Source of the DNA: Anaerolineales bacterium
GTDB taxonomy: Bacteria > Chloroflexota > Anaerolineae > Aggregatilineales > UBA2796
NCBI GenBank assembly: GCA_015075625.1
Contig: JABTTZ010000001.1
Span: 1,674,001 to 1,738,000, forward strand
Direction of reading: 5' to 3'
Length of the DNA stretch: 64,000 nucleotides
The position numbers and the translations under genes are program-made. The notes beneath the pieces were generated by a model. That model did no database searches. It saw only the letters and a program-made list of their open reading frames with translations, and was not told where the DNA came from. Positions 8,199 to 62,562 of the stretch are shown here, one piece after another (position 1 is the first letter of the stretch; each line of letters opens with the position of its first letter).

Positions 8199-8309
8199 AC
8201 GGATAGTCTCCTTCGAGGGGAAAGTATATCCTGTCAGCGGGAAAGAAGGGGCAGAACCGCCACCCCGTCCACAGGGGAAGGGGGCAAACCAGAAGCGGGG
8301 AAACACATG

Positions 8310-9720
8310 GCGCGGGGTTAAAACACCCGCGCTAGGACTAATCACCCCGTTGGGGCTTAAACCAGAATACAGGATGCGCCTTTGCCTTCAAGCCCCGTAG
8401 GGGGGCGCGGGGTTAAAACACCCGCGCTAGGACTAACCGCCCCGTTGGGGCTTAACACGGACGCGGGGGGAATTGCCTTTCTCTGTTTTCAGCCCCGCCC
8501 CTAAAGGGCGGGGTGGTCAGCCTTAGCCCGCTGCTTTAGCGGCGGGCGATCATGGGTGGACGGGGCGGGGGGAAACACAAGGCGCGGGGTTAAAACACCC
8601 GCGCTAGGACTAACCGCCCCGTTGGGGCTTAAACCAGAATACAGGATGCGCCTTTGCCTTCAAGCCCCGTAGGGAGGCGCGGGGTTAAAACACCCGCGCT
8701 AGGCGTGATCACCCCGTTGGGGCTTAACACGGACGCGGGGAATTGCCTTTCTCTGTTTTCAGCCCGCCCCAAAGGGCGGGTGGTCAACTCTTAGCCCGCT
8801 GCTTTGGCCCGCCGCTTTCAGCGGCGGGCGATCGCGGGTAAACACGGACGCGGGGAATTGCCTTTCTGTTTTCAGCCCCGCCCCAAAGGGCGGTGGTCAG
8901 CCTTAGCCCGCTGCTTTGGCGGCGGGCGATCGTGGGTGGACGGGGCGGGGAAACACAAGGCGCGGGGTTAAAACACCCGCGCTAGGACTAATCACCCCGT
9001 TGGGGCTTAACACGGACGCGGGGGGAATTGCCTTTCTCTGTTTTCAGCCCCGCCCTAAAGGGCGGGGTGGTCAACCTTAGCCCGCTGCTTTAGCGGCGGG
9101 CGATCATGGATGGACGGGGCGGGGGGAAACACAAGGCGCGGGGTTAAAACACCCGCGCTAGGACTAACCGCCCCGTTGGGGCTTAAACCAGATACAGGAT
9201 GCGCCTTTGCCTTCAAGCCCCGTAGGGAGGCGCGGGGTTAAAACACCCGCGCTAGGCATGATCACCCCGTTGGGGCTTAACACGGACGCGGGGGGAATTG
9301 CCTTTCTCTGTTTTCAGCCCCGCCCTAAAGGGCGGGGTGGTCAACCTTAGCCCGCTGCTTTAGCGGCGGGCGATCATGGGTGGACGGGGCGGGGGGAAAC
9401 ACAAGGCGCGGGGTTAAAACACCGCGCGCTGGGACTAATCACCCCGTTGGGGCTTAACACGGACGCGGGGGGTTGCCTTTCCCCTGTTTTCAGCCCGCCC
9501 CTAAAGGGCGGGGTGGTCAGCCTTAGCCCGCTGCTTTAGCGGCGGGCGATCATGGATGGACGGGGCGGGGGGAAACACAAGGCGCGGGGTTAAAACACCC
9601 GCGCTAGGAATAACCGCCCCGTTGGGGCTTAACACGGACGCGGGGAATTGCCTTTCTGTTTTCAGCCCCCTAAAGGGCGGGTGGTCAGCCTTAGCCCGCT
9701 GCTTTAGCGGCGGGCGTCGG
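8310..9720. repeat. Long decayed REP array (about 1.4 kb, no gene)
   Basis: At least eight repeats of the A-B-core-B'-C composite follow one another. Two cores alternate: one with CCAGAATACAGGATGCG and one with CACGGACGCGGGG plus GGAATTGCC. Several units carry small deletions (for example near 8755-8830 and 9640-9700), so the array is decaying. Reading frames here are only REP translations. Confidence 0.9.
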
Positions 9721-9762
9721 GGTGCGGCAGATGCAAGCGGGCGCACGCCTCCCCCCCTCCCA

Positions 9763-10443
9763 GTTTCAGTACCCTCAACGGGCTGGATGTGGTTGCAACT
9801 GGTTGGGCATCCATCAGCAGCTTGTCTAAGCCGTTTCAGTACCCTCAACGGGCTGGATGTGGTTGCAACTGTCAGCCCGCGTGTTCTACTTCCTCGCCCA
9901 CCATTGTTTCAGTACCCTCAACGGGCTGGATGTGGTTGCAACGCCTAGCTGAAAACGCGCAACTGGCAAACGCGCAGTTTCAGTACCCTCAACGGGCTGG
10001 ATGTGGTTGCAACAGCGCAGCAGGGGGCAAGGGTGGTTGTCATTGACAAGTTTCAGTACCCTCAACGGGCTGGATGTGGTTGCAACCTCTTGAACACCGT
10101 CCCGAACCCCAACTTCAATGTTTCAGTACCCTCAACGGGCTGGATGTGGTTGCAACCGATAGCCACATAGACGATTGCCCCTATACCAAACAGTTTCAGT
10201 ACCCTCAACGGGCTGGATGTGGTTGCAACTTGAAGGCACAAGACAAGGTGAACGTTGACCAAGGTTTCAGTACCCTCAACGGGCTGGATGTGGTTGCAAC
10301 AAGGTAAAGGGAGGGGGAGGGGCATGAACCCTCACTTGTTTCAGTACCCTCAACGGGCTGGATGTGTTGCAACCCGTCTCCGCACGCATCTTGAACGTCA
10401 CCCCGTGTTTCAGTACCCTCAACGGGCTGGATGTGGTTGCAAC
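9763..10443 (-). CRISPR. CRISPR array 1: ten 37-nt repeats, nine spacers
   Basis: Repeats start at 9763, 9833, 9906, 9977, 10050, 10120, 10193, 10264, 10338 and 10407. Each reads GTTTCAGTACCCTCAACGGG followed by CTGGATGTGGTTGCAAC; the repeat at 10338 lacks one G (36 nt). Spacers are 33-37 nt. On the minus strand the repeat begins GTTGCAACC and ends GGTACTGAAAC, the usual form of a repeat 3' end, and the conserved leader lies on the right, so transcription runs leftward and the newest spacers are near 10400. No cas gene is in the window. Confidence 0.97.
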
Positions 10444-10789: not shown

Positions 10790-10972
10790 CGCGCGGGGTT
10801 AAAACGCCCGCGCTAGGATTAATCACCCGTTGGGGCTTAAGACGCAAGATGGGTGCGACGCATGGATTCCCCCTCTCTCCTTGTGGGAGAGGGGGCTAGG
10901 GGGTGAGGGTTTCCAAGCCCCGTCCTTTAGGGCGGGGCGGTTAACCTTAGCCCGCTGGGTTACCCTCGGGCG
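10790..10972. repeat. REP unit, modules A, B, F, B' and a modified C that enters the next gene
   Basis: Module A at 10792 and B are followed by a C-rich hairpin (CCCCCTCTCTCC / GGGAGAGGGGG, about 10869-10896), B' and a C module whose loop was rewritten to GAGGGTAACCC. The modified C module supplies the last codons and stop of the neighbouring gene. Confidence 0.75.
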
Positions 10973-11384
10973 CACCCTCCCGCAGCCAGCGCAGGGCGTC
11001 TTCCTCGGCGGTGAAAAAGTGGATGTGCCAGTTGGCATAGGGACGGCGCTTGAAAAACGACGCCAAAAGCGCTGCCACCGCGTCGTTCGTCAGCAAGATG
11101 GCGCCGCGCCCATCGGTCACGGGGAGGTAGCGCATCTGCCGCAGAACGCGGATCACTTTGTCCGTTGCATAGGGCGTCACCCGTTCCGCCCCGCGTATAT
11201 CGTGCAGGTAGCGCAGCCGCCGTCCGGGTCGCCACGCGGACATCACCTTGTGGCAATCGGCAAACCACGTATCGAGCGTCTCGCGGCGGGCGTCTAAGAG
11301 GCGCATAGCGACGACCTCACCGGGGAGGCGTTCGCGGCGGTAGCCGGCGTGGGCAATGACAGTACGGGGGGGAAACGTGTTCAT
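10947..11384 (-). CDS. Small STAS/SpoIIAA-like domain protein
   Basis: A 145-residue cytoplasmic protein. The pattern of alternating strands and helices, the segment LRYLHDIRGAERVTPYATDK and the end FFTAEEDALRWLREG resemble SpoIIAA-like/STAS-fold proteins common in Chloroflexota; this is a fold-level guess. Its ATG lies directly after element E1, with GAGGG about 10 bases upstream as ribosome site, so E1 probably supplies both promoter and translation start. The last residues (PEGNPAG) and the TAA stop are encoded by a modified REP C module. The next gene, on the other strand, is a Ser/Thr kinase, so a signalling role is possible but not shown. Confidence 0.6.
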   Translation of the reverse strand: MNTFPPRTVIAHAGYRRERLPGEVVAMRLLDARRETLDTWFADCHKVMSAWRPGRRLRYLHDIRGAERVTPYATDKVIRVLRQMRYLPVTDGRGAILLTNDAVAALLASFFKRRPYANWHIHFFTAEEDALRWLREGAPEGNPAG

Positions 11385-11385
11385 A

Positions 11386-11550
11386 GTGCAGTACCCTCAC
11401 TGGTTGGGTTGCAACCAGCCTTCTTACAAGAAGGGCGAGCGTCGTTCGTTTACCCCTTAGATTACCACCGCCTAGCCCATCGGTAAGTCTATCGTGATAA
11501 GCGGAGCCGTCAACCACTAAGGGGTCAATCTCCTTGAAAAATGCTGTAGG
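11386..11550 (-). promoter_or_regulatory. Element E1: promoter and 5' UTR cassette with a CRISPR-repeat-like end
   Basis: Read on the minus strand, it has TTGACG (11508-11513), a 16-nt spacer, TAGACT (11486-11491), a UTR hairpin around CCTTCTTACAAGAAGG, then GGTTGCAACC and TGAGGGTACTG, ending a few bases before the ATG at 11384. Three more copies lie at 58892, 62003 and 62399. Its last 33 bases match the CRISPR repeat in the blocks GTTGCAACC, CCAG and TGAGGGTACTG. Confidence 0.75.
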
Positions 11551-11619: not shown

Positions 11620-13836
11620 ATGACAACCTTAACCGACCTCATTGGAAAACAGATCGGCAATTATCAGATCGTTAGCTCACTTGGGGCAGGCGGGATGGCG
11701 GCGGTCTTTTTGGCACGCCAACTCACCATCGAGCGCAACGTTGCCCTAAAGGTGATGAAACCAGCCCTGACCGACTCGGCGCAGGGGACTGATTTTGTCC
11801 AACGCTTCATCCGTGAGGCGAACACGATTGCCCAATTGGATCACCCGCATATTGTGAAACTCTTTGATTTTGGGCAGCACGAGGACATGTTCTACCTCGT
11901 TATGCAGCTTGTGCGCGGCGGGACGCTGAGCAAGGCACTTCAGGAATCAGCCGTTCCCGATGCGCAAATCGCCCGTTGGCTGAATCAGATTGCCAGCGCC
12001 CTGGATTATGCACACGGACGGGGAATCATTCACCGCGATCTGAAACCGCAGAATGTCCTCCTTGACGAATCGGGCAACGCCATCCTCACCGATTTCGGCA
12101 TCGCCCGTCTGGTGGAAAACAAAGAGGCAAGCCAACTGACCCAGACAGGAGCGATTATAGGCACGCCCGCTTACATGTCGCCGGAGCAGTGGCAGGCGCG
12201 TCCCATCGACGCCCGCTCCGACCTGTATTCCCTCGGCGTCATGGTCTACGAAATGCTGGCGCGGCGCGTCCCCTTTGATACGGATACGCCCTACCAAATG
12301 ATGTTCAAGCACGTCCACGAACCGCCGCCGCCCCTTCGCGCCTTACGCCCTGATTTACCCCCCAGTGTGGAGGCTGTTCTAAACAAGGCGCTGGCGAAAG
12401 AGCCAAAGGAACGCTTTCAATCTGGGGAGTCCTTCGCGGGCGCATTCGATATAGCGCTGAGCGGGCAAACGCCCTGGCAGATTGCCGCTGACAAGCCAAC
12501 CTCAACGGCGCCCGCTCTTGCCATGCCAAGCGCGGTGCGGCAGGAAAGCCCAACGGCTGTCCCTTCACAATCCGCCCCCGCCCGACGGGGGAGCGGTATG
12601 CTGATCGCCGGAGTCGCCGTCCTCATCGTGCTGTTTGTGGCAATCGTGGCGCTCTTAAGCGGACGGGGGAACGGCGACAGCCCCACCACCGACAGCGCCG
12701 CGCTGACCCTGACGGCGAGCGAGGTCGCCCGCCTTGCCGCCATCCTCAGCGCCACCGTCCCCCCCCCGACGACGCCCACCGCGACGGCGACCTTCACCGC
12801 CACCGCCACCGGGACATTCACCGCGACGGCAACCTTCACGGCAGCGGCGACCGCTACCGAAACGTTCACCGCCACCCCGTCGGAGACGCCCGACGCCCGC
12901 CTGATTGCCCAAGTGACCTTTAGCGCCATCCAAACGGCAACGGCGACACTCTGGACAGCCACCCCCACCCCCGACGTGCCAGCCACCATCGGCGCAGAGC
13001 TGACCGCCCTCGCCGTTGCCTCTTTCACAAAAACGCCGACACCCACCGACACCGCGACGGCGACCTTCACCGCGACGGCGCCGCCCACCCTGACGCCGCT
13101 CCCCACCCTCACGCTCCTGCCAAGTGCCACGCCCGCCGCCGTCGTCATGCGCAACAACGACTGGCTGCCGCGCGGCAGCCTCTTTGACGGCGTGGAGATG
13201 GTGCTTGTTCCGGCGGGCTGTTTCCAGATGGGCTACCCGGACGATGCGCAGACCTCACCGACGAGCCAAGTGTGCTTTGATCAGGATTATTGGATTGACC
13301 GCTACGAAGTGACGAATGAGCAGTTCAGCCGTTTGAACGGGGCAGCCGTCAACCGCACCAGCTACCCCGACCAACCTTTCTTCCCCCGTGTGAACATCTC
13401 GTGGTTCGAGGCACGGACGTTCTGCCTCCAGCGCGGCGGACGCTTGCCCACCGAGGCAGAGTGGGAATATGCTGCCCGCGGTCCCGATAATTTGCTTTTC
13501 CCCTGGGGGAACGACTATGGGCGGAGCTACCTAATCGCCAATTCGCCGCGCCCCTCGGCGGTGGGATCGCGCCCGAAGGGAATGTCGTGGGTGGGCGCCT
13601 ATGACCTGAGCGGGAATGTGTGGGAGTGGGTGAATTCGATCTTGCGCCCCTACCCTTATGATCCCACCGATGGGCGCGAGGGGCTGGAACTGCGTCCGGG
13701 CGAGGAACGGGTGGCGCGGGGCGGATCATACAACTTCAGCAGTTCGATTGATCTGCGCGGGAGTTCCCGAAACGATATTGATCCTACCCGCACGGACAGT
13801 GTGTACGGCGGGTTTCGCTGTGTGCGGGGGAGTTAA
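11620..13836 (+). CDS. Transmembrane Ser/Thr protein kinase fused to an FGE-sulfatase-like domain
   Basis: 738 residues. The cytoplasmic kinase (about 14-280) has the Gly loop LGAGGMAAV (21-29), Lys44, HRDLKPQN (138-145, Asp140) and DFG (158-160), followed by GTPAYMSPEQ. A membrane segment spans 327-347. A Thr/Ala/Pro-rich linker (about 355-510) leads to a C-terminal formylglycine-generating-enzyme-like domain (about 518-738: MVLVPAGCFQMG, RLPTEAEWEYAARG, LSGNVWEW, GGFRCVRG). In true FGE the catalytic site uses two Cys five residues apart near the C-terminus; here only the FRC cysteine is present, so it is probably a ligand-binding C-type-lectin-like fold and not an oxidase. It probably senses an outside signal. 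Confidence 0.92.
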   Translation: MTTLTDLIGKQIGNYQIVSSLGAGGMAAVFLARQLTIERNVALKVMKPALTDSAQGTDFVQRFIREANTIAQLDHPHIVKLFDFGQHEDMFYLVMQLVRGGTLSKALQESAVPDAQIARWLNQIASALDYAHGRGIIHRDLKPQNVLLDESGNAILTDFGIARLVENKEASQLTQTGAIIGTPAYMSPEQWQARPIDARSDLYSLGVMVYEMLARRVPFDTDTPYQMMFKHVHEPPPPLRALRPDLPPSVEAVLNKALAKEPKERFQSGESFAGAFDIALSGQTPWQIAADKPTSTAPALAMPSAVRQESPTAVPSQSAPARRGSGMLIAGVAVLIVLFVAIVALLSGRGNGDSPTTDSAALTLTASEVARLAAILSATVPPPTTPTATATFTATATGTFTATATFTAAATATETFTATPSETPDARLIAQVTFSAIQTATATLWTATPTPDVPATIGAELTALAVASFTKTPTPTDTATATFTATAPPTLTPLPTLTLLPSATPAAVVMRNNDWLPRGSLFDGVEMVLVPAGCFQMGYPDDAQTSPTSQVCFDQDYWIDRYEVTNEQFSRLNGAAVNRTSYPDQPFFPRVNISWFEARTFCLQRGGRLPTEAEWEYAARGPDNLLFPWGNDYGRSYLIANSPRPSAVGSRPKGMSWVGAYDLSGNVWEWVNSILRPYPYDPTDGREGLELRPGEERVARGGSYNFSSSIDLRGSSRNDIDPTRTDSVYGGFRCVRGS

Positions 13837-31526: not shown

Positions 31527-31705
31527 GGACGCCTCAGAGGGCGTCCCTACAGGGGCGGGGCAACCAAACTATAGCGCGGGGTTAAACCACCCGCGCTAGG
31601 ACTAACCACCCCTGCGGGGCTTGACCCCGAATCCGCGATGTAATTTGCCTTCAAGCCCCAACGGGGCGGTTAATTTCAGCCCGCTGCTTTAGCGGCGGGC
31701 GGACG
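31527..31705. repeat. REP unit (D, A, B, core, B', C)
   Basis: D hairpin at 31527, module A (GCGCGGGGTTAAACCACCCG) at 31573, B, the core CCGAATCCGCGATGTAATTT, B' and C. The CGAATCCGCGATGTA core is shared by the REP units in virion cluster A. Confidence 0.85.
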
Positions 31706-31786
31706 CCGACGGGCGTGAGCGGGCGACCACGCGGGGTCGCCCCCCATAGAGTTTTTCAACCAACTGACCGAAAGGATAACCAACCA

Positions 31787-32152
31787 ATGGCACGCGATAC
31801 GCTCCCGATCACCGATCTTGCCGTGAACGCGCTGACCGCACCGGAAACGCCGCTGGCGATCTCGCCAACAGATGGGGCGACGCTCCCCGCCGGTGGCGAT
31901 ACGGGGCGGATCGCCGTCCAGATCACAAACAGCGCCGAGGCAGCCTACACGGTGACCGTTGCGGCGGGGGTGAACCCGCCCGCCTTCCGCGCCCCAATGG
32001 GCGATCTCGCCATGGAAATCCCCGCCGGAGCAACGCGCTACCTCGTCATTGAGTCAGCGCGATTTGCCCAAGCGAACGGGGCGATCTGGCTGGATTTTGA
32101 AAGCGGGATGACGGGGACGGCGCTCGCTTTGCGGCTGCCGCGTGGGGTGTGA
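31787..32152 (+). CDS. Small virion-associated beta protein (decoration-like)
   Basis: 121 residues from the ATG at 31787, with AAAGGA about 10 bases upstream. The sequence alternates short beta strands (DTGRIAVQITNSAEAAYTVT, AGATRYLVIESARFAQ) and has no catalytic motif, no signal peptide and no Cys. Its place after the capsid gene and its Ig-like strand pattern suggest a capsid decoration or head protein; this is inference. Its stop codon is two bases from the next ATG, so the two genes are translationally coupled. Confidence 0.6.
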   Translation: MARDTLPITDLAVNALTAPETPLAISPTDGATLPAGGDTGRIAVQITNSAEAAYTVTVAAGVNPPAFRAPMGDLAMEIPAGATRYLVIESARFAQANGAIWLDFESGMTGTALALRLPRGV

Positions 32153-32154
32153 CC

Positions 32155-32847
32155 ATGCGCCGGACGATCACGACAATCCTCTTACAGCGTACCGCCGCCG
32201 ATGATGCTGGCGCCTTCGCCACACTGCTCCGCTCGCTGCGTTTCACCCTGACGCGGGACGACTGCGAGGCGCTCATCTTGTTGAACGGAGTCGATGGCGC
32301 ATCGCCCGATCTGCCGGGGTCCGTTCGCTGGCTTCGTTGGCAAACGCCCCGCCCCGCCGCCGAGGGGTGGGCGGCGCTGGCACTGGCGGCACGCGGGCGG
32401 CGTCTCGCTCTAATCGCCCCCGATGGGCAGATTCGGGATTCGGCGTGGCTGGATGCGCTGAGTGCTGCGCTGCGGGGGGATGGCGTTGGGCTGGCGGCGG
32501 CGGCGGGGGGGTGGCTTGCCCTCACCGCTGAGCGTGAGGGCTGTCTGATCCCCGCCAAAGGGGGGGCGGGGATGGATGTTCCCCTTGGGGGGGCAATCCT
32601 CGGACGGCGGGAGGTGATCCGTGCGGCGCTGGAGGCGGCGGCAGAAGAAAACGACCCCCACCCGATCATCGGGATCGCGCTGCGGGCGCGGGCGGCAGGC
32701 TATGGGGCGGTGGTGGGGAAGAACGCCGAAGCTCTTGTCTGTGGGGGGTGGTGGGGGGCGGCTGACCTTCGCGCCCCGCCCGATTTTGCGCGGCGCTGGC
32801 GCGGGCGCGGGCTAATTCAGGCAGAGCAAGGCGGGCGCATTCCGTAG
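32155..32847 (+). CDS. GT-A-fold glycosyltransferase-like protein
   Basis: 230 residues. The N-terminal half reads like a family 2 glycosyltransferase: beta strand EALILLNGVDGASPDLP, then AARGRRLALIAPDGQIRDSA and WLDALSAALRGDGVGLAAAA, where the usual DxD lies in a (V/F)xDDD segment but is APDG here. A second nucleotide-sugar-type segment is GGAILGRREVIRAALEAAAE. The DxD motif is not intact, so activity is uncertain. It overlaps the translation unit of the small protein upstream (ATG 2 bases after its TGA). It could modify virion or surface glycans. GC content and Gly/Ala richness are extreme. Confidence 0.5.
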   Translation: MRRTITTILLQRTAADDAGAFATLLRSLRFTLTRDDCEALILLNGVDGASPDLPGSVRWLRWQTPRPAAEGWAALALAARGRRLALIAPDGQIRDSAWLDALSAALRGDGVGLAAAAGGWLALTAEREGCLIPAKGGAGMDVPLGGAILGRREVIRAALEAAAEENDPHPIIGIALRARAAGYGAVVGKNAEALVCGGWWGAADLRAPPDFARRWRGRGLIQAEQGGRIP

Positions 32848-32854
32848 GGACGCC

Positions 32855-33125
32855 CGCCGCTAAAGCAGCGGGCTGAGATTGACCGCCCCGTTGGGGCTTG
32901 AAGGCAACCTACATCGCGGATTCGGGATTAAGCCCCGCAGGGGTGGTTAACCCTAGCGCGGGTGTTTTAACCCCGCGCTATTTCGTGCCTTTGCGCCCGC
33001 CGTTAAAGCAGCGGGCTGAGATTGACCGCCCCGTTGGGGCTTGAAGGCAAAGTACATCACGGATTCGGGGTCAAGCCCCGCAGGGGTGGTTAGCCCTAGC
33101 GCGGGCGGTTTAACCCCGCGCCACG
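32855..33125. repeat. Two consecutive REP units
   Basis: Two full C-B-core-B'-A composites stand head to tail (32855-32980 and 32995-33122). Their cores (CTACATCGCGGATTCGGG and GTACATCACGGATTCGGG) differ at a few positions and belong to the virion-cluster-A subfamily. Confidence 0.88.
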
Positions 33126-33200
33126 CAACCCCATCCCCGATTTTTTTGCCTCTTCGCGGTACAATGTCACCTTCCAACAAAAACCCTATTGGAACACTGC

Positions 33201-33923
33201 ATGTCCACTCTGAAAACCCTTCTTCCCGCGCCGCTGCGCCGCCGTTTGGGAGCGTTCCGCAAAGGCTTAGAGGTCGCCCGCTTCCGGTGGGAGACGCGCC
33301 ACCTTGATGCCTTCCTCCGTGATGTGCGCGGCGTGATTCATGTCGGGGCGCACACTGGCGAGGAGGCTGACCTCTACGCCGCACGCGGGTTGGATGTGAT
33401 CTGGCTTGAGCCGATCCCCGCTGTCTTTGCCCAATTGGAAAAAAACATTGCGCCGTTCCCTCGCCAGCGGGCGATCCGCGCCCTCATCAGCAGCGCCGAC
33501 GACCAGCCAATCACCTTTCATGTTGCCGATAATGCGGGGAGCTCGTCCTCCCTGTTCGAGTTCGCCCGTCACACCGAACTGTATGGCGAGGTCGCTATGG
33601 GGCAGACGCTCACCCTTCAGACGGTGACGCTCTCCACGCTGGCGCAGCGCGAACAGATCGACCTCAGCAAGTACGACGCGCTGGTCATGGACACACAGGC
33701 ATCCGAACTGCTCGTTTTGCAAGGGGCAGCGCCTATCTTGGATGGCTTTCGCTACATCAAAACGGAGGCAGCCGATTTTGAACTTTACAAGGGCGGCTGC
33801 CAATTGAAAGATATTGAGGCATTCCTCTCGCCACGTGGCTATAGGGAAATCGCCCGCTACCTGTACATCGAAAAGGCGGACGTCGGGCATTGCTACGATG
33901 TCGTCTACCGGCGCGGTACGTAG
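33201..33923 (+). CDS. FkbM-family methyltransferase
   Basis: 240 residues from the ATG at 33201. The SAM-binding block is VIHVGAHTGEEADLYAARGL, followed by VIWLEPIPAVFAQLEKNI, the conserved SSSLFEFARH segment and DTQASELLVLQGA (the FkbM D-x-x-G/S-x-E-x-x-V-L-x-G motif). FkbM enzymes O-methylate sugars or natural products, and often sit in surface-glycan clusters. Here the gene lies among virion genes next to a glycosyltransferase-like gene, which suggests glycan modification of a particle or the cell surface. It has REP units on both sides and its own promoter is not clear. Confidence 0.88.
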   Translation: MSTLKTLLPAPLRRRLGAFRKGLEVARFRWETRHLDAFLRDVRGVIHVGAHTGEEADLYAARGLDVIWLEPIPAVFAQLEKNIAPFPRQRAIRALISSADDQPITFHVADNAGSSSSLFEFARHTELYGEVAMGQTLTLQTVTLSTLAQREQIDLSKYDALVMDTQASELLVLQGAAPILDGFRYIKTEAADFELYKGGCQLKDIEAFLSPRGYREIARYLYIEKADVGHCYDVVYRRGT

Positions 33924-33927
33924 GGAC

Positions 33928-34060
33928 GCCCGCCGCTAAAGCAGCGGGCTGAGATTGACCGCCCCGTTGGGGCTTGAAGGCAAACTACATCCCGTATTCG
34001 GGTTCAAGCCCCGCAGGGGTGGTTAACCCTAGCGCCGCACGCGCTCACGGTTGCGCCCGC
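33928..34060. repeat. REP unit (C, B, core, B', partial A)
   Basis: C and B are followed by a core with CTACATCCCGTATTCGGG and B'; module A is cut short after AGCGC at about 34032. Confidence 0.8.
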
Positions 34061-34100
34061 CGCCCAACCTCACCCCACGTCGGGGCGACCACGCGCCCTC

Positions 34101-34526
34101 TCATTCCCACGTCTCGCTGATCCATTCCCCCACCCGAACAAAGACGATCTCAAAGACCGCCGCCGCGCCTTGATTCAGCCGTTCGCTGAAGGTCTGCACA
34201 ACGGCGGGAAAGCCCCGTTTGGGCATCCCCGGCGCAGCGCCGCCGCGCCCGTAGATGAGGACGCCCCGCGTCCCCTCGGCAAGCGCCCCCTCAAGGGATT
34301 CCTCCGCGTGCAGGACAATCCGCGCTGCGCCGCCCGCCGCCCCCAGCAGGACATCACGGTAGGGGGCGTTGTGGGGAGTCCCATCGGGGAGATCGGCGTT
34401 TCGTTCGATGCGAAACTCTAGGTAATGGGGGTGGAGCGCGTGTGATTCGTCCGCCACCTCCCAAAAAATGACGAGTTGAGCAAGGGCGGCGCGGCGCAGC
34501 TCCAAAAATGCCGAGGAGGGGTACAT
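34101..34526 (-). CDS. Small virion-type protein (tail terminator/completion-like position)
   Basis: 141 residues, no Cys, no signal peptide. It starts MYPSSAFLELRRAALAQLVI and holds GVLIYGRGGA and an aromatic end FEIVFVRVGEWISETWE. No family can be named from sequence alone. It lies 14 bases after the connector-like gene and probably shares its transcript; in tailed phages this place is normally taken by head-completion or tail-terminator proteins, and the size fits. That role is inferred from order only. Confidence 0.5.
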   Translation of the reverse strand: MYPSSAFLELRRAALAQLVIFWEVADESHALHPHYLEFRIERNADLPDGTPHNAPYRDVLLGAAGGAARIVLHAEESLEGALAEGTRGVLIYGRGGAAPGMPKRGFPAVVQTFSERLNQGAAAVFEIVFVRVGEWISETWE

Positions 34527-34540
34527 CGATCCACCTTTCT

Positions 34541-35086
34541 CTAGACGAATCTTCCGACGACGATCCCCGCCAAGCGTTCATGATGATCGACCATCCGTAA
34601 ACAGTGGGCGTGTTCTTGCGCCGCCCGCACCCCGCGCCCTTCTGCCTCCCAATCAAGTTTGGCAGCAGCAAGGGCGGCTTTCTGCGCCCAAACCGCCGCC
34701 GCCGCCCGATGGAGGTTGTAGACTCGGCAGTCAAGGACGTACCGCGCCCCGCCCGTCTCACTGAGGAAGGTGATCCGCCGTGCGGCATAATTCACCGCGT
34801 AGAGCGCCGGATTGACCACCGCCCCCCGCCGATCCCGCACAGCAAAGCCGGAATCCGTCCCCGCTTCCTCTAGCGGGTCGCTCAGCGGGATGCGGTATAC
34901 CGTCACCGGTGGGGGCGTCACGGCGATCAGTCCCAGGCGGCTATGAACCGTCGCCATCCGATCCAGTTCGGCTTGAAGTTGGTCGTCCGTCCAATAGGGG
35001 ACGCCCGCCAGAGTGACATCCGTCGGCGTCGTGTTCGTCAGCAGCCGCAGTTGGGCGATCACCGTCGCCATCCCAGATCGGGGCAT
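34541..35086 (-). CDS. Phage head-tail connector-like protein
   Basis: 181 residues from the ATG at 35086, which has AAAGGA about 8 bases upstream; longer reading of the frame runs into a REP unit. The start MATVIAQLRLLTNTTPTDVT and YWTDDQLQAELDRMATVHSR match the N-terminal helix pair of gp6-type head-tail connector proteins (a short DNA-adaptor family). A beta middle (VYRIPLSDPLEEAGTDSGFA) and a helical end (LHRAAAAVWAQKAALAAAKL) follow. It would join the portal to the tail. Next gene in the transcript is the small protein at 34101-34526. Confidence 0.65.
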   Translation of the reverse strand: MPRSGMATVIAQLRLLTNTTPTDVTLAGVPYWTDDQLQAELDRMATVHSRLGLIAVTPPPVTVYRIPLSDPLEEAGTDSGFAVRDRRGAVVNPALYAVNYAARRITFLSETGGARYVLDCRVYNLHRAAAAVWAQKAALAAAKLDWEAEGRGVRAAQEHAHCLRMVDHHERLAGIVVGRFV

Positions 35087-35124
35087 CTTGTGTATCCTTT
35101 CTTGTTTCTCGTCGTGTGGCTGCC

Positions 35125-35268
35125 CGCGTTTGCGCCCGCCGCTAAAGCAGCGGGCTGAGATTGACCGCCCCGTTGGGGCTTGAAGGCAAATCATGTCACG
35201 GATTCGGGTTCAAACCTCGCAGAGGTGGTTAACCCTAGCGCGGATGGTTTAACCCCGCGCCCTCATGA
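35125..35268. repeat. REP unit (C, B, core, B', A)
   Basis: Full composite with the core CATGTCACGGATTCGGG; B' is mutated (CCTCGCAGAGG) and module A has GATG in its loop. Confidence 0.85.
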
Positions 35269-35275
35269 GGACGCG

Positions 35276-35959
35276 CTACAGGGCATCCGCCGCCAGCGCT
35301 GCGATCTGCGCCGCCGTCAGCGCCGCCCCCCACAAGCCAACACGGGCGAGCGACCCGCGCATATCCGCCGCGCCCGGTGTCCGCCCAAAGGTCAGCGGTA
35401 CGGCGGCGGGCGTGATCGGCGTGCTGTATGCCCGCACCGCAGCCAACACCCCGCCGCGATACAGCCGCACGAACTCGCCATCGTAGCTCAGCGCCCAGTG
35501 TTGCCAGCGGTTCAGGGCGGGGTCAAGGCGGCTAACCCCGCTTTCGGTGTAACTGTTCAGCCAACCGAGGTAGCCACCGGCAAAGGCAAAGGCATAGCCC
35601 GCCTCTGACCACGACGCCTCATTTTTCCCGATGATTCCCCCATATGGCGCGTGGGCGGCAAGGCGCAGCCAAAACGCCAGTGTGAATGCCGCCGGGGTCA
35701 GCGCCGCATCGTCGGGGACGATCACCGCCCCCTCGCCCCCAAAACGCGGGGCGGGGCGTCCATCAGGGGCGCGGTCTGCCCCCGCCGCCACGCCCGTATA
35801 CGTCCCGTTGTAGCCGTTCCCAGAGGCATCCACCGCCACCGCCGCCCCCGCCCCTTCGTCCAGCACCCATGCGCCGATCAGGGCGGCGGGGTAGGCGTTC
35901 AGCAGGCGGCGGGTGAAGTTCGGCGCGGCGGGTTGAAGGCTGAGCAAGCGGTGTGCCAT
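35276..35959 (-). CDS. LamG/concanavalin A-like domain protein of the virion cluster
   Basis: 227 residues. After a 25-residue lead (FTRRLLNAYPAALIGAW) the rest is one LamG-type beta-sandwich: VDASGNGYNGTYTGV, FTLAFWLRLAAHAPYGGIIG, RWQHWALSYDGEFVRLYRGG and RVGLWGAALTAAQIAALAAD. LamG domains bind sugars and are common on phage tail fibres and baseplates. There is no signal peptide, which fits a virion protein more than a secreted host lectin. It is 18 bases downstream of the 120-residue gene at 35978 and probably shares its transcript. A second LamG domain lies inside the protein at 36923-39466. Confidence 0.75.
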   Translation of the reverse strand: MAHRLLSLQPAAPNFTRRLLNAYPAALIGAWVLDEGAGAAVAVDASGNGYNGTYTGVAAGADRAPDGRPAPRFGGEGAVIVPDDAALTPAAFTLAFWLRLAAHAPYGGIIGKNEASWSEAGYAFAFAGGYLGWLNSYTESGVSRLDPALNRWQHWALSYDGEFVRLYRGGVLAAVRAYSTPITPAAVPLTFGRTPGAADMRGSLARVGLWGAALTAAQIAALAADAL

Positions 35960-35977
35960 GATTCGGACTCCTCTCGG

Positions 35978-36340
35978 CTAGACAGGGCGCACGACGATCT
36001 GAAAGACTCGATCCGCCGCCTCCGCCTCCGCCGTTTCAATTTTTAGGTAGCGCCAGCCGAGAAAATCACGGGGGTTCAAGGGGTATGCCCGCGCCGCAGC
36101 GGTGCTGACCGCCAGGCTGAGCGGGACGTTTCCCCCATCGCACAGGGGGTAGAACGTCTCGCCATCGGCGCTGACCTGAAAGGTGATCGCCGCGTTCGTC
36201 AGGGCGGCGGGCGTGATCAGCCCAACGGGGGTATAGCCGCCCAGATCAAGCGCTGTGCTGAGCGATTCTTCCTCGGCAAGGGTGAGCGCCGCTGTCGCCC
36301 GCGTGTAGGCGGATTGGGCGCTGAAGGGTGGGAGAGTCAT
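35978..36340 (-). CDS. Small virion-cluster protein
   Basis: 120 residues from the ATG at 36340, with AAAGGA 8 bases upstream; the frame is open to 36403 but without a ribosome site. The composition is beta-rich (AITFQVSADGETFYPLCDGG, FLGWRYLKIETAEAEAADRV). The pattern of a short beta-sandwich with 'QVSADGETFYPL' is seen in small phage tail proteins, but I cannot assign a family. First gene of the leftward group 36340-34101. No virion-type promoter (as at 30457) was found upstream; a REP array starts there. Confidence 0.55.
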   Translation of the reverse strand: MTLPPFSAQSAYTRATAALTLAEEESLSTALDLGGYTPVGLITPAALTNAAITFQVSADGETFYPLCDGGNVPLSLAVSTAAARAYPLNPRDFLGWRYLKIETAEAEAADRVFQIVVRPV

Positions 36341-36419
36341 GGGGCAATCCTTTCTAAGGTAGACGACGATGCGCATGAACCATTCGCCGTAATCGATTTT
36401 CAACGACGTTACGGGGGCG

Positions 36420-36912
36420 CGTGTGGCGCGGGGTTAAAACACCCGCGCTAGAAATAGCCACCCCTACGGGGCTTAATCCCGAATCCGCGATGTAGGTTGC
36501 CTTCAAGCCCCAGCGGGGCGGTCAATCTCAGCCCGCTGCTTTAGCGGCGGGCGCAAAGGCACGAAATGGCGCAGGGTTAAAACATCCGCGCTAGGGTTAA
36601 CCACCCCTGCGGGGCTTAATCCCGAATCTGCGATGACGGCGCGGGGTTAAAACACCCGCGCTAGAAATAGCCACCCCTACGGGGCTTAATCCCGAATCCG
36701 CGATGTAGGTTGCCTTCAAGCCCCAACGGGGCGGTCAATCTCAGCCCGCTGCTTTAGCGGCGGGCGGAAAGACACGAAATAGCGCGGGGTTAAACCGCCC
36801 GCGCTAGGGCTAACCACCCCTGCGGGGCTTGACCCCGAATCCGTGATGTAGTTTGCCTTCAAGCCCCAACGGGGCGGTCAATCTCAGCCCGCTGCTTTAG
36901 CGGCGGGCGGAA
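36420..36912. repeat. REP array between divergent virion genes (about 490 bp)
   Basis: Three A-B-core-B'-C composites, one of them partly deleted near 36635, all with cores of the CGAATCCGCGATGTAG type. The last C module ends 11 bases before the next start codon and directly abuts its ribosome site. Confidence 0.9.
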
Positions 36913-36922
36913 AGGAGAATGC

Positions 36923-39469: not shown

Positions 39470-39690
39470 GTCGCCCGCCGCTAAAGCAGCGGGCTGAAAT
39501 TGACCGCCCCGTTGGGGCTTGAAGAGTCCCTCACCCCCTGCCCCCCCTCCCACAAGGGGGAGAGGGGGAAATCAATCCCCATATTTCGTAGGGACGCCCC
39601 AGGGGGCGTCCGTCCTATCAGGCATTGGGGTTTCAAGCCCCGCAGGGGTGGTTACTCATAGCGCGGGCGTTTTAACCCCACGCCATTTCC
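39470..39690. repeat. REP unit broken by an F hairpin and a D module
   Basis: Modules C and B are separated from B' and A by a C-rich hairpin (about 39535-39570) and a D hairpin (39592-39612). So F and D sit in the place of a normal core. Confidence 0.8.
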
Positions 39691-39785
39691 CGCCTTTGCG
39701 CCGCACGCGGTCATGGCTGCCACTCGCCGTGTGTTCGCGCCGCGACTCGGCATCTTCTACGTTGTATCAGAAAGGACACCCCCTC

Positions 39786-40280
39786 ATGGCATGGACACCC
39801 CCCGACACGCGCACCGCTGGTGATGTATTCAGCGCTGCCGCCTACAACACCTACCTACGCGATAACCTCACCTACCTTCACGCTGGAAAGCCCCTCGCGG
39901 CGCTGGCACGGGCGAACGGGTCGGTGTACACCGTCAGCGCCTCGGCGTGGGCGGCGGTGGATGCGACGCACCTTGCCCCCACCCTGACCCTTTCCACCGG
40001 GCGCGTCCTGATCGCCTGTGTGGGCAGTTTTTATGCTGATGCCGCCTCGCGCCTTCTCTCGCTGGATGTCGCCATTGACGGAACGCGCATCGGTGGCACG
40101 GATGGGCTGCTCAAGACAACACTGGACACGAACGCTCAGAGCATCGCCTTCACCATCCTGCACGCGGGGCTAAGCGCCGGATCGCACAGTTTTACGCTGA
40201 TGTGGCGGGTGGGGTCGGGGATTGCCTCCCTGTTCAGCGGGACGGATGTCGCCGTCCATTTCACAGTGGCGGAGTGGTAG
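39786..40280 (+). CDS. Small tail-fibre-like protein
   Basis: 164 residues from the ATG at 39786 (AAAGGA about 10 bases upstream). The start TPPDTRTAGDVFSAAAYNTY followed by RDNLTYLHAGK is typical of short phage tail or fibre proteins and of cyanophage-type structural proteins ('W-x-P-G-D-x-L-T-A-A-x-x-N'). The rest is a beta-sandwich (VLIACVGSFYADAASRLLSL, LDVAIDGTRIGGTDGL). It closes virion cluster A. No lysis genes follow; a REP array and CRISPR array 2 come next. Confidence 0.6.
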   Translation: MAWTPPDTRTAGDVFSAAAYNTYLRDNLTYLHAGKPLAALARANGSVYTVSASAWAAVDATHLAPTLTLSTGRVLIACVGSFYADAASRLLSLDVAIDGTRIGGTDGLLKTTLDTNAQSIAFTILHAGLSAGSHSFTLMWRVGSGIASLFSGTDVAVHFTVAEW

Positions 40281-40319
40281 CGGCGGGCGGTTGTCTGGAG
40301 GGGAGGCGGGGAGGCGCGG

Positions 40320-40770
40320 GGAAACACATGGCGCGGGGTTAAAACGCCCGCACTAAGAATAATCACCCCGTTGGGGCTTAACACGGAATACACCGTGCGG
40401 CATTTGCCTTCAAGCCCCGTAGGGGAGGCGCGGGGTTAAAACGCCCGCGCTAGGAATAATCACCCCGCTGGGGCTTAAGGCGGAATACACCGTGCGGCAT
40501 TTGCCTTCAAGCCCCGTAGGGGTGGCGCGGGGTTAAAACGCCCGCGCTAAGAATAATCACCCCGTTGGGGCTTAACACGGAATACACCGTGCGGCATTTG
40601 CCTTCAAGCCCCGTAGGGGTGGTCAGCCTCAGCCCGCTGCTTTAGCGGCGGGCGATCATGGGTGGACGCCGCACACGGACGCGGGGAAACACATGGCGCG
40701 GGGTTAAAACGCCCGCGCTAGGAATAATCACCCCGATGGGGCTTAAGACGGAATACACCGTGCGGCAGTC
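40320..40770. repeat. REP array leading into CRISPR array 2
   Basis: Four A-B halves with identical cores (GGAATACACCGTGCGGCA) and one complete C module. The last A-B half runs into the first CRISPR repeat with its core cut after GTGCGGCA, so the array's trailer end replaced the rest of a REP unit. Confidence 0.9.
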
Positions 40771-40792
40771 GGTTGCAGATCGAGATCAAGGG

Positions 40793-41276
40793 GTTTCAGT
40801 ACCCTCAACGGGCTGGACGTGGTTGCAACTGGGCGATAGCGATGCTATTGAAATCTACCGCCTGCTGGGTTTCAGTACCCTCAACGGGCTGGACGTGGTT
40901 GCAACAGTATGGGCAGGTGGTTGGGCTGCCTGAGAGAGAAGAGGTTTCAGTACCCTCAACGGGCTGGACGTGGTTGCAACGTGGCAGCAATTGCGTTTCC
41001 AGCCCTTAATTTTAGTTTCAGTACCCTCAACGGGCTGGACGTGGTTGCAACTCTATCGCCGTCAAGTCCTCCCCCCCATTGTGAGAAATGTTTCAGTACC
41101 CTCAACGGGCTGGACGTGGTTGCAACAATGCATTCATTCTTTCCAGTGATGATCTGACCGCCGGTTTTCAGTACCCTCAACGGGCTGGACGTGGTTGCAA
41201 CCTGAGCGATATACACTTGACTACTGCATTAAAACCTCAGTTTCAGTACCCTCAACGGGCTGGACGTGGTTGCAAC
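40793..41276 (-). CRISPR. CRISPR array 2: seven 37-nt repeats, six spacers
   Basis: Repeats start at 40793, 40869, 40944, 41015, 41090, 41165 and 41240. They differ from array 1 by one base (GGACG for GGATG); the repeat at 41165 has T as first base. Spacers are 34-39 nt, a little longer than in array 1. The leader is on the right, so transcription is leftward. No spacer was seen to match the window by eye. Confidence 0.97.
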
Positions 41277-41600
41277 GCCCCTCATTCAAACGTCTCACCG
41301 GAGGCAAAATGACCTGTGAGATCATTTTCGTTCAAATTTGGGCGTTCCTCGATAGCGATCATCATACACCCTATTCCAAAAATGTCAAGCAATTTGTCCC
41401 GATTTTCGCAACTCGATCTCTGTCTTAAAAAGCCGCCGAGTTGCGACGGGCTTTCGGGGGGAGTTGCGAAACCCGCTCCATCCACAGGGGATGGGTAAAT
41501 TCAAGGAAAGCCCCTTTAGGCAGTGGTATGTCTACCCAATGATCAGCGCTCTATAAAACGGTATGTCAGGGAGGGACTTGCGACATACCCCCCTAAAAAG
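41277..41600 (-). promoter_or_regulatory. CRISPR leader of array 2 (intact promoter)
   Basis: About 320 bases are shared with the flank of array 1. On the minus strand: TTGACA (41383-41388), 16-nt spacer, TATGAT (41361-41366), 84 bases before the first repeat. A 9-bp hairpin (41306-41328, arms AAAATGACC and GATCATTTT) keeps its stem in all three loci while its loop differs. The leader ends within a few bases of the next gene's stop codon. Confidence 0.82.
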
Positions 41601-41602
41601 GC

Positions 41603-42871: not shown

Positions 42872-42875
42872 CAGC

Positions 42876-43499: not shown

Positions 43500-43559
43500 A
43501 GCGAAGTACTCCGGTGAATGTGAACTATGTCTAATTGTAGTAGGACATGCGCTATGGAT

Positions 43560-43935: not shown

Positions 43936-43956
43936 CCCACATCGGGACGCCCCCGT

Positions 43957-58891: not shown

Positions 58892-59055
58892 ATTGCAGTA
58901 CCCTCGCTGGTTGGGCTGCAACCAGCCTTCTTAGAAGAAGGGCGGGCATCGTTTGTTTACCCCTTGATTACCACCGCCTAGCCCATCGGCGAGTATATCA
59001 TGATACGTGGGGCGTCAACAATTAAGGGGTCAATCTCTTTGAAAAATGCTGTAGG
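58892..59055 (-). promoter_or_regulatory. Element E2, orphan copy
   Basis: Minus strand: TTGACG (59018-59013), 15-nt spacer, TATACT (58997-58992), UTR hairpin, and the repeat-like end with GAGGGTACTGCAAT. No start codon follows at the place where E1 and E3 have one (ATA is found). The element ends about 40 bases before the cluster B promoter. Confidence 0.72.
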
Positions 59056-59096: not shown

Positions 59097-59133
59097 GTTT
59101 CAGTACCCTCAACGGGCTGGATGTGGTTGCAAC
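59097..59133 (-). CRISPR. Solitary CRISPR repeat with leader
   Basis: One 37-nt repeat identical to the array 1 consensus, followed on the right by a leader copy (59134-59286) but with no second repeat on the left. Either the array has been lost, or this is a site where spacers could be added. A single repeat is not proof of an active locus. Confidence 0.8.
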
Positions 59134-59286: not shown

Positions 59287-59380
59287 GACCCAAAACGGTC
59301 AACACAGCCTCGGTTGGTCTCTTTTGAGGGTTTCCCTTCTTGGCAGATGTTCCTTTTTCTAACTGCGGACACGCCTTTCA
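59287..59380. repeat. Repeat P, copy 2 (94 bp)
   Basis: Matches 25582-25675 at 93 of 94 positions. Its last three bases (59378-59380) are the stop codon of the regulator gene to its right, and its left end abuts the CRISPR leader remnant. Confidence 0.85.
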
Positions 59381-62002
59381 CAGCCCCGCATCCGCCTGCA
59401 GCGCCGCCATATCGCCCACGCCCGCCGCTGCTCGCAAGGATTCCCACAACCGCTGCTGCACCGCCCGCACGCCATCTTCAGCACAGATGGAGAGCGCAAT
59501 CTGGGCGTCGCGCAGGGCTGCCTCTGCGTAGGGCATTTCGCCCGTCAGATGGTAGATCCCGGCGTTTGCCAATGCCAGCGTGTAGCGGGCGTGGTACAAG
59601 CCATAGGTATATCCCAAGAGGCGTTTTGCCTGATGCGCTCCCTCCTGAAAGGCAGCCAACGCTTCCTCCCCGCGCCCCAACCGCGCCACGATGATCCCGT
59701 ACAGTACGGCGGTGACATGATCGTTGCCATAGATCGCCGCCGCCCGCGCCGCGCTCGCCGCCTCTAACGCCTCATCGAAAGCGCCCGCCCACAGGAACGC
59801 CTTTGCCAGATAGCCCCCCTTGTAACTTTGCTCGCGGCGCAGCCCTAAGCGTTCGGCAATCGCCCGCGATTCGCGCAGAAGGTCTATGGCACGGGGATAA
59901 TCCCCCACCGCCGCATAGACCTCGCCCAGATCGCCCCAGTTCATCCCCATGCCGATCACCGGCTCAAAGCCGTCATCCTGAAAATCGGGGGGCATGGCGC
60001 GGTAGAGGCTGAGGGCGGCTTCAAAGCGGCGGATTGCCTCGTCATACTGCCCGCGTAAATAGGCAACCCACCCTAACCCGCTGTGCGTTTTCCCTTGCGC
60101 TACCGCATCATTGAGCGCCTCGGCAAGCGTCAGCGATTCACCCAAATAGTGACGCGCTTGGCGGAACAACCCCAGATCGTAATACGCCCAACCGAGGCTG
60201 TTGAGGGCTTTTTCCTCATCGCGGGGTGATCCCTGTTGGCGGGCGCGTTCGCCAGCATCCTCGTAACAGGCAATAGCATCCCGCGTTCGCCCCATGCGGC
60301 GGTAGACCTTTCCCAAGCGCAGCGTCAAAAAGCGCCCCAACGCTGGGTCTAGGTCGCCCCCATGAGGGCGGAGCGCCTCATACATCTCGCGCAGGTCGCT
60401 ATCCCGTCCGCGCAAGGAATAACCGCTGTCAATCTCAGCCAAAAGCGCGGCGGCTGCCGCATTGCTGCCGGCGCTAAGGTAATGGTCAAAGGCAGCCCGC
60501 GCCCGTTCCTCCGAATCATCGCCGTGAATGTGGGCATATTCGGCAGCGCGGGCGTGCAACGTCCGGCGGGTGAAGGCGGCGGGGGCGTCGCTGGCTGCCC
60601 CCTGTGGAAGCTGTTCATAGAGGAAGGCACGATCCAGCGGGTGCAGGCTGAACAGCCGCTCTTGGTAATTCAAAAAATAACTGCGCACCAGTCGATTCAA
60701 CGACTGATGGATGATTTTGGGGTCAAGGAAGGGGGCGAGCAGGTACTCAAAGGCGGCTTTCGGGGCGGGGCGATTCAAGACCGCCGCCGCCGCCAAAACC
60801 TGACCAAGCTCCGGGGCGTGGTCAATCAGCGCTCGGATTGCCCCCTCTACCAACAGGGACGCCATCTCCCCGCGCAAGAAGGAGTCATCGGATAGCACAT
60901 CGCTCACCGTCAGCAGCGAATCTTCCAACAACAGCCCAACAAGGGCGACGAGGGCGCGGGGATAGCCTTGCGCCAAGCCCGCTAAGCGCTCCAGCACATC
61001 GGGATGGGCATCGCGAACGCCCGCCGCCCCATCGGGATCGGCACGGCGCAGCAGTTCGACGGACTCGGCGGGGGGCAAGCCTTCCTCAAGGGCAATGACG
61101 CGCTCCCAAGCCTTCACTGTGCGCGGCAGCGCCAATGGGTAGCGGCTGGTGATCACCACCTGGAGAGAACTGCCCTGTTCGAGGACAATCTCAAAAAAAA
61201 TGGCTAAATCGGGATCGTGAAACTCGCCTGTCGCTGAATGTTGGTAGGATTCAAGGTTATCGAGGTAGAGCAGGTAGGGTTTCCCCTCAAGCGAATCGAG
61301 GAATACCGTCACCCGCTGCGCCGCCGAGAGCGAATCGGTGAGCGCCGCATCGAGGGCGGCACGCGCCGTTGGGGAGATGATCAGGCGAAAGTCGTCTATG
61401 ATGCGCTGGAGGGTGATCCCCGTCCCCGTCGGCGTGAGGACGACCACTCCGGCGATTTCTGCCGACTCCCGTTCAAGATCGCCCAAGACCTTGCAGACAA
61501 GCGCCGTCTTGCCCACCCCCGCCCGCCCATACAGGCTGATCAACCGCGCCCCTTCGTGGATCACAGTGCGCAGGTGGCGCTGTGCTTCCGCCCGTCCCAC
61601 ATAGCGCTCGCCCACCGCTTGGGGGAGGGCGTTCACCCATAGGATGCGCGGCGGGGGCTGTGCCGCTTCGGTAGATGGTTCGGGCGGGGGGGCGGCACTT
61701 AGCGGGAGTTCAAGGCGATAGCCAATGCCCATCTCGGTGCAGAGGTATTCGGGGTTTGCCGGGTCGTCCTCAATCTTACGGCGCAGGCGGCGCACATAGG
61801 TGTGAACGTACTCGCTCTCATCGCCGTACATATCGCCCCAGACGTGCTGCAAAAGCGTCCGATGGCTGAGGACTTGTCCGTGATGTTTCAGAAAGACGGC
61901 AAGCAGCGCCCACTCCGTTTTCGTCAGGCGGATTGGCACGCCGTTCCGCGTGAGGCGATAGGCGGCGAGATCAATTTCAAGTGTTCCGTGCAGTGTCCTC
62001 AC
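59378..62002 (-). CDS. Winged-helix/STAND ATPase/TPR transcriptional regulator
   Basis: 874 residues starting at the GTG at 62002, with GAGGG 9 bases upstream supplied by element E3. Residues about 5-100 form an OmpR/SARP-type winged helix (LTKTEWALLAVFLKHHGQVL, HTYVRRLRRKIEDD). A STAND/AAA ATPase follows (P-loop LYGRAGVGKTALV at about 158-170, Walker B YLLYLDNLES), and the C-terminal half is TPR repeats (EKALNSLGWAYYDLGLFRQA, GKTHSGLGWVAYLRGQYDEA). This resembles SARP/LAL-type regulators, where ATP and a ligand or partner switch DNA binding. The target genes are unknown. The stop codon coincides with the end of repeat P copy 2. Confidence 0.88.
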   Translation of the reverse strand: MRTLHGTLEIDLAAYRLTRNGVPIRLTKTEWALLAVFLKHHGQVLSHRTLLQHVWGDMYGDESEYVHTYVRRLRRKIEDDPANPEYLCTEMGIGYRLELPLSAAPPPEPSTEAAQPPPRILWVNALPQAVGERYVGRAEAQRHLRTVIHEGARLISLYGRAGVGKTALVCKVLGDLERESAEIAGVVVLTPTGTGITLQRIIDDFRLIISPTARAALDAALTDSLSAAQRVTVFLDSLEGKPYLLYLDNLESYQHSATGEFHDPDLAIFFEIVLEQGSSLQVVITSRYPLALPRTVKAWERVIALEEGLPPAESVELLRRADPDGAAGVRDAHPDVLERLAGLAQGYPRALVALVGLLLEDSLLTVSDVLSDDSFLRGEMASLLVEGAIRALIDHAPELGQVLAAAAVLNRPAPKAAFEYLLAPFLDPKIIHQSLNRLVRSYFLNYQERLFSLHPLDRAFLYEQLPQGAASDAPAAFTRRTLHARAAEYAHIHGDDSEERARAAFDHYLSAGSNAAAAALLAEIDSGYSLRGRDSDLREMYEALRPHGGDLDPALGRFLTLRLGKVYRRMGRTRDAIACYEDAGERARQQGSPRDEEKALNSLGWAYYDLGLFRQARHYLGESLTLAEALNDAVAQGKTHSGLGWVAYLRGQYDEAIRRFEAALSLYRAMPPDFQDDGFEPVIGMGMNWGDLGEVYAAVGDYPRAIDLLRESRAIAERLGLRREQSYKGGYLAKAFLWAGAFDEALEAASAARAAAIYGNDHVTAVLYGIIVARLGRGEEALAAFQEGAHQAKRLLGYTYGLYHARYTLALANAGIYHLTGEMPYAEAALRDAQIALSICAEDGVRAVQQRLWESLRAAAGVGDMAALQADAGL

Positions 62003-62173
62003 ATTGCAGTACCCTCACTGGTTGGACTGTACCAGACCTCTTACAAGATGTACGGGCAGCGGTAGTCTCTACCCCTTGCTTCCCACAGCCTATCGTAATC
62101 CACAAGTATAGTGTGATGACTCGGTTTGTCAACCGCTAGAGAGCAATCTTCTTGGAACATGCTCGGCGTTAGG
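62003..62173 (-). promoter_or_regulatory. Element E3: promoter and 5' UTR of the wHTH-STAND regulator
   Basis: Minus strand: TTGACA (62132-62127), 16-nt spacer, TATACT (62110-62105), then a UTR ending in TGAGGGTACTGCAAT directly before the GTG start at 62002. It is the most diverged copy of the E family, yet the promoter, the spacing and the repeat-like end are kept, as expected if it is functional. Confidence 0.72.
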
Positions 62174-62398: not shown

Positions 62399-62562
62399 AT
62401 TGCAGTACCGTCACTGGTTGGTCTGCAACCAGCCTTCTTACAAGAAGGGCGGGCGTCGTTCGTTTACCCCATGATCACCACTGCCTGCCCCATTGGTAAT
62501 TATATCGTGATACGTGGGGCGTCAACCATTAAGGGGTCAATCTCCTTGAAAAATACTGTAGG
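62399..62562 (-). promoter_or_regulatory. Element E4, orphan copy upstream of the glycosyltransferase gene
   Basis: Minus strand: TTGACG (62525-62520), 15-nt spacer, TATAAT (62504-62499), UTR hairpin CCTTCTTACAAGAAGG and a repeat-like end with GACGGTACTG, where the ribosome site is mutated and no start codon follows. It lies on the opposite strand to the gene at 62596, within 35 bases of its start. Confidence 0.72.

Follow-up and report, generated by a model that had tools for sequence, protein, structure and literature searches.

What is a sequence of some 165 bases doing four times, always in one orientation, in a single window (the whole 64,000-nucleotide stretch of DNA analysed here), with promoter-like boxes in its body and a tail resembling the local CRISPR repeat? 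The initial annotation read the copies, E1 to E4, as a dispersed promoter/5' UTR cassette whose tail might place a cellular gene under Cas6-type cleavage or crRNA pairing. The data presented in this study favor the cassette, and suggest that it is mobile: E appears to be a small non-autonomous transposon, about 161-165 bp long, that serves as a promoter/5'-leader cassette and occupies about 100-120 sites in one species, a reading to which we give a probability of roughly 0.78. The window copies and the genes behind two of them are as follows.

11387..11548, minus strand: E1, full copy, from TACAG to CTGCA (alignments A1-A3; nhmmer E-value 2.5e-54)
58894..59053, minus strand: E2, full copy
62005..62167, minus strand: E3, old, diverged copy, 76% identical to the consensus
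62401..62560, minus strand: E4, full copy, oriented toward E3
10947..11384, minus strand: 145-aa ORF beginning 2 nt past E1, no Pfam match
59378..62002, minus strand: 874-aa regulator (Pfam Trans_reg_C, AAA/NB-ARC, TPR) beginning 2 nt past E3

E1 is flanked by CC on its left and CTATG on its right. E3 ends 2 nt from the GTG of the regulator gene, and neither E2 nor E4 has a start codon close behind it; palindromic repeats separate E4 from E3. On the plus strand, divergent from E1, 11620-13836 encodes a serine/threonine kinase fused to an FGE-sulfatase domain.

The common orientation of the four copies held up (all lie on the minus strand), but as a set of four they had been far undercounted. 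Within the 2.45 Mb examined (contig 1, 0-2.05 Mb; contig 2, 0-0.4 Mb) there are 64 full copies of a non-coding unit of about 161 nt, with per-copy E-values of about 1e-26 to 1e-57 and the consensus TACAGCATTTTTCAAGGAGATTGACCCCTTAGTGGTTGACAGCCCCGCTTATCACGATATACTTACCGATGGGCTAGGCGGTGGTGATC(T)AAGGGGTAAACGAACGACGCCCGCCCTTCTTGTAAGAAGGCTGGTTGCAGYCCAACCAGTGAGGGTACTGCA. A DNA search of the whole genome (4.68 Mb, five contigs) gave 122 candidates, 40 of them scored at 88-100% identity, and the core CTGRTTG-N5-CAAYCAG-NRAGGGTAC was matched 102 times genome-wide with two mismatches or fewer. By scaling, the genome holds about 100-120 copies in total. Pairwise identity among copies runs from 59 to 99%; since the lower figure means that some copies are old, the family has been spreading over a long time.

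This spread is confined to one genome. DNA searches of 101 genomes and a covariance-model search of 61 genomes both found E in its own genome only, with none in relatives in the former. The core gave one chance-like match (2 mismatches) in 150 relatives, a single, probably fortuitous match across 84,980 species, in Motilimonas, and none in viral contigs, and neither plasmids nor phages matched E itself. The same-genus genome has one 37-nt fragment (G001, C333:18125-18184; L230/L257) that is about 83% like the left end of E and has the perfect hairpin ATCTTC-GCT-GAAGAT. It is joined to another, unrelated repeat and is only a lead as a possible homologue; a second, weaker match in that genome did not look related.

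The boundaries of E are those of an insertion. Flanks of different copies are unrelated and the element ends sharply; outside the left-hand CYTA and the right-hand CAATA, flanking sequence is random. The left flank is strongly constrained (C.88, C/T.82/.17, T.95, A.95), and TA follows on the right in about 70% of copies. For two insertions (C1:1082762 and C1:1799343) paralogous empty sites were found, the change being from CCTA|GTT to CCTA|CAGC...CTGCAATA|GTT. Because the joined flanks match these E-free sites, insertion is precise and its orientation fixed. Further copies adjoin other dispersed repeats at their CC|TA end; where such a repeat lacks E, it continues CC|TAG. Dispersed copies, unrelated flanks, sharp ends and precise empty sites together identify E as a small non-coding mobile element; dispersal, constant ends and empty sites are also what is generally expected of a small non-autonomous one. 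Both empty sites fit either a TA duplication or an element ending in ATA, and there was no signal among the copies for a longer target-site duplication. The element ends match at only 5 of 7 positions (TACAGCA/TGCAGTA), no terminal inverted repeats of 15-30 bp are present, and a subterminal 13-bp match that could pair end to end covaried no better than shuffles. Of the possible terminal hairpins, the one at the right end is strong and the one at the left end weak. In one copy (C1:1074693; L119:14693-14854, minus strand) the final 16 nt, CGAGGGTACTGCAATA, are tandemly repeated.

The cassette itself was well described by the initial annotation. All four window copies have TTGAC(A/G) and a -10 box separated by 15-16 nt, and the family has the promoter-like consensus TTGACA-16-TATACT, with exact TTGACA in 47 of 63 copies and exact TATACT in 32 of 63. 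The parts of E1 that would serve in expression are listed below.

11486..11513, minus strand: promoter-like site TTGACG-16-TAGACT (sequence scan; hexamer tally over 63 copies)
11393..11440, minus strand: three-way junction with P1 GCTC/GGGT (covariation on 66 copies, exceeding all or nearly all shuffles; fold of the E1 tail)
11434-11419, minus strand: H1 hairpin CCTTCTTGTAAGAAGG
11418-11400, minus strand: H2 hairpin CTGGTTGCAACCCAACCAG
11389..11399, minus strand: TGAGGGTACTG, containing the Shine-Dalgarno-like GAGGG

As had been claimed, GAGGG stands 9-10 nt before a start codon in E1 (ATG, gene 10947-11384) and in E3 (GTG, gene 59378-62002). The 14 copies that are less than 90% identical to the consensus keep 0.86-0.93 identity in the -35, the -10, GGTGATC, the hairpins and the tail, compared with 0.84 at the left end and 0.70-0.76 in the remaining parts. 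The promoter boxes, leader fold and ribosome site are thus the best conserved portions, and copies precede starts more often than by chance, all of which is consistent with predicted promoter and translation activity.

The fold in question occupies the 3' third of E, a three-way junction of P1 (GCCC/GGGT), H1 and H2. Across 66 copies, 97.3% of cells pair and four pairs carry changes on both sides. Seven cells are changed on both sides, which none of 500 shuffles reached, and the covariation score exceeds all 500 shuffles, though kinship of the copies can inflate it. Slid controls were far lower in paired cells and in score, although not in the number of doubly changed pairs. For most copies, single-sequence folding gave structures no more stable than those of shuffles, and the consensus tail contains a competing hairpin, GCAGCCC...GGGUACUGC; some copies may therefore fold in two ways. 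GGG of the GAGGG site is paired in both folds and lies within the closing helix P1 in the first, so that the fold could damp translation. A bolder extension is that E acts as a portable riboregulator, its junction sequestering the ribosome site and opening on one signal (ligand, temperature or protein), which would subject dozens of genes with no relation to one another, including mraY and pyrB, to common translational control in one species. We consider this speculative and quite unlikely.

Nearly all copies (62 of 64) are intergenic. Measured against a null of 5,029 intergenic CYTA sites, and with genes taken from a home-made hexamer caller whose exact starts are approximate, 44 of the 62 have a same-strand gene ahead of them (null 0.55, p 0.011) and 12 of the 62 end 40 nt or less before a start codon (null 0.068, p 8e-4). 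At C1:69749-69907 a copy occupies the whole 165-bp gap between an ftsI-like gene and mraY (TIGR00445); the former is a likely assignment, read from its sequence and the dcw gene order. Other copies lie 23 nt upstream of pyrB (TIGR00670) and 19 nt upstream of a PDH E1-alpha-like (pdhA-like) gene that falls just below the TIGR03182 cut-off. Many copies head no gene.

These features could instead belong to a native regulatory leader RNA for a large regulon, resembling a riboswitch or a thermometer, with selection and not transposition behind its copies. Such an RNA would account for a covarying junction and for Shine-Dalgarno bases held in its closing helix, and related tails do occur alone in leaders, for example before ppx/gppA at C1:853526 (L108:13526-13578, minus strand), where the fold is more stable (z -3.0) and the tail may represent either a decayed E or a native form of greater age. 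However, what is copied includes the promoter and upstream DNA, with sharp ends and unrelated flanks; copies have gone into other repeats and empty sites exist; many copies serve no gene, E is absent from the same-genus genome searched, and Rfam has no match (the window has no family at gathering thresholds, and at three loci the E sites gave none at an E-value of 5). A native leader is very unlikely on this evidence. In the preferred reading, that of a mobile cassette, E inserts precisely behind 5'-C(C/T)TA-3', its orientation fixed and its sites nearly all between genes, most likely through a transposase acting in trans, and would bring its own sigma-70-like promoter and a leader of about 100 nt that ends in the three-way junction and the terminal GAGGG. 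A copy that landed just before a start codon (mraY, the E1 ORF, the E3 regulator and others) would be positioned as promoter and ribosome-binding region, and one that landed farther upstream would add a promoter. Natural selection probably kept copies landed before genes, and this would explain the bias toward same-strand starts.

The remaining claim of the initial annotation was that the tail is CRISPR-repeat-like, with control by Cas6 or crRNA comparable to CreTA. The following features served for comparison, and the arrays lie outside E.

9763..10443, minus strand: CRISPR array 1 (repeat families D7/D11)
40793..41276, minus strand: CRISPR array 2
59097..59133, minus strand: solo CRISPR repeat, no array, behind a leader-like stretch at 59134-59282 (D11, D19)

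E2 lies about 40 nt downstream, on the minus strand, of the solo leader and repeat. In array 1 one repeat (10323-10374) is one base short, GATGTG-TTGCAAC (D7). The local repeat on the minus strand is GTTGCAACCACATCCAGCCCGTTGAGGGTACTGAAAC, and its best alignment with E is colinear, GTTGCA(A/G)CC-CA(A/T)CCAG-----TGAGGGTACTG, with a 5-nt gap. The reported identity of the 11-base block TGAGGGTACTG between E1 and the repeat (11/11) is correct, and at the level of the family this 11-mer is the only sequence exactly common to E and the repeat. The 9-base block GTTGCAACC, also offered as a feature of E, is not one: it occurs in 2 of 64 copies only (E1 and one other), the others having GTTGCAGCC, GTTGCAGTC, GTTGCCGCC or similar in its place. 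Among masked genomic 161-mers the likeness score puts the consensus in the top 0.08% (8e-4) and E1 in the top 0.01% (1e-4); the former is the fair figure because E1 was the copy noticed. The likeness exceeds chance for one comparison, yet it was picked among many possible comparisons.

If the tail were a mimic through which Cas6 binding or cutting, or crRNA pairing, controlled the downstream gene, the colinear alignment, these ranks and the Cas6 gene at C1:878904 would all be in its favor. However, the local repeat and two related repeats form the hairpin CCC-GUNGA-GGG, and the alignment gap, CCCGT, contains most of its 5' arm and part of its loop, so that the hairpin is missing from E. Changes within E keep its own hairpin (CTGGTTG/CAACCAG to CTGATTG/CAATCAG) and in doing so depart from the repeat, whose 8-nt 3' handle, ACTGAAAC, is altered to ACTGCAAT in E, and the best match between array spacers and E is at chance level. 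Moreover, the same repeat type is found in four relatives (G005, G008, G010, G011), all without E, which shows that the repeat is neither derived from E nor dependent on it; the same-genus genome G001 does not have this repeat type. Repeats of the four relatives (L217-L228) share roughly GTTGCAACC-N-CCCGTNGAGGGTACTGAAAC, with conserved ends and a variable middle. Control of this kind is thus highly improbable, and E most likely resembles the CRISPR repeat by coincidence. The region C1:876.9-887 kb looks like a cas operon, its genes besides cas6 being judged from order and size. A copy of E stands at the far 3' end (C1:876543; L109:16543-16704, plus strand) and is oriented against the operon, so it is not that operon's promoter.

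It remains to ask what would move E. The window contains an intact-looking IS200-like Y1 transposase gene (51872-52291, minus strand; PF01797, E-value 1.8e-22) amid dense palindromic repeats, and the genome has three further Y1 loci, which look partial or different. Arrays of such repeats lie at 8297-9740, 31573-36991, 39631-43938 and 51313-53582, and in 2.45 Mb there are 84 H1 and 146 H2 palindromic hairpins, named separately from the hairpins of the leader. C(C/T)TA precedes most H1 palindromes and one H1 group surrounds the Y1 gene of the window, which makes Y1 machinery shared with E a reasonable guess, and we hold it tentatively, at somewhat less than even odds. An element mobilised by an IS200/IS605-type (Y1) enzyme would stand in fixed orientation behind a short 5' target and carry no duplication; E has the CYTA flank and the fixed orientation, but may also have a TA duplication. 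An autonomous partner bearing the ends of E was found neither near the four Y1 loci nor in the 2.45 Mb. A bridge-RNA (IS110) element was considered and rejected, as no IS110 transposase was found in the genome. The same mobile E might instead owe its movement to a DDE transposase that duplicates a TA target site, as in Correia-like elements. A TA duplication would fit the two empty sites, the ends match at the 5 of 7 positions noted above and there are DDE_3 matches in the genome; those matches are fragments, though, the right-flank TA is present in only some 70% of copies, and a TA-duplicating DDE enzyme requires neither an asymmetric CYTA target nor a fixed orientation. We regard a DDE mover as unlikely, if a serious contender, and one of the Y1 transposases of the genome as a candidate.

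Mobile promoters are already known; here, about 100 copies of one species-restricted family combine a predicted promoter with a covarying folded leader and with a ribosome site, and one of them fills the region before mraY. The family offers a testable case of the regulatory rewiring of core genes by a selfish repeat. The case also illustrates that exact identity to a CRISPR repeat over a short stretch can be misleading if copy number and structure go unchecked.

Putative mobile promoters, cases in which unrelated genes of one genome are preceded by nearly identical promoter regions, have reportedly been described under the heading 'Promoter propagation in prokaryotes', and to these E adds the covarying leader, the Shine-Dalgarno site and a defined insertion site. 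It is not a MITE in the strict sense, failing on inverted repeats. REP/REPIN sequences are palindromes of 20-40 bp tagged GTAG or CGTC and moved by RAYT Y1 transposases (PMC3733652, PMC8049555); E likewise is high-copy, intergenic, non-coding and hairpin-bearing in a genome with Y1 genes, but its unit is 161 nt, has no GTAG/CGTC tag and carries a predicted promoter. With CreA/CreTA, which are ectopic CRISPR repeats (PMC8501985, PMC9458426), E has in common a CRISPR-repeat-like stretch outside an array; in contrast, E has no degenerate repeat hairpin and no toxin RNA, no guide-like stretch was recognised beside it, and it has about 100 copies. The closest parallel is the Correia element (CREE) of Neisseria, non-coding, about 155 bp in its long form and present in about 120 copies per gonococcal genome, with TA target sites, some CA ends and, frequently, a place immediately upstream of genes, to which it brings promoters and hairpins and where its final A can serve as the A of ATG (PMC2649163). 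E resembles it in size, copy number, non-coding character, TA or CA ends, and in hairpins and promoters (by consensus in E) upstream of genes. The inverted repeats of CREE are clear and its promoters arise partly at the junction (PMC2649163), whereas E has weak ends, a fixed orientation behind CYTA and its whole predicted promoter and Shine-Dalgarno site inside. The range of E is also different, and E was not filed as a Correia element. It is best read as a new, species-restricted family of mobile promoter/leader cassettes that would work in the way Correia elements do in Neisseria.
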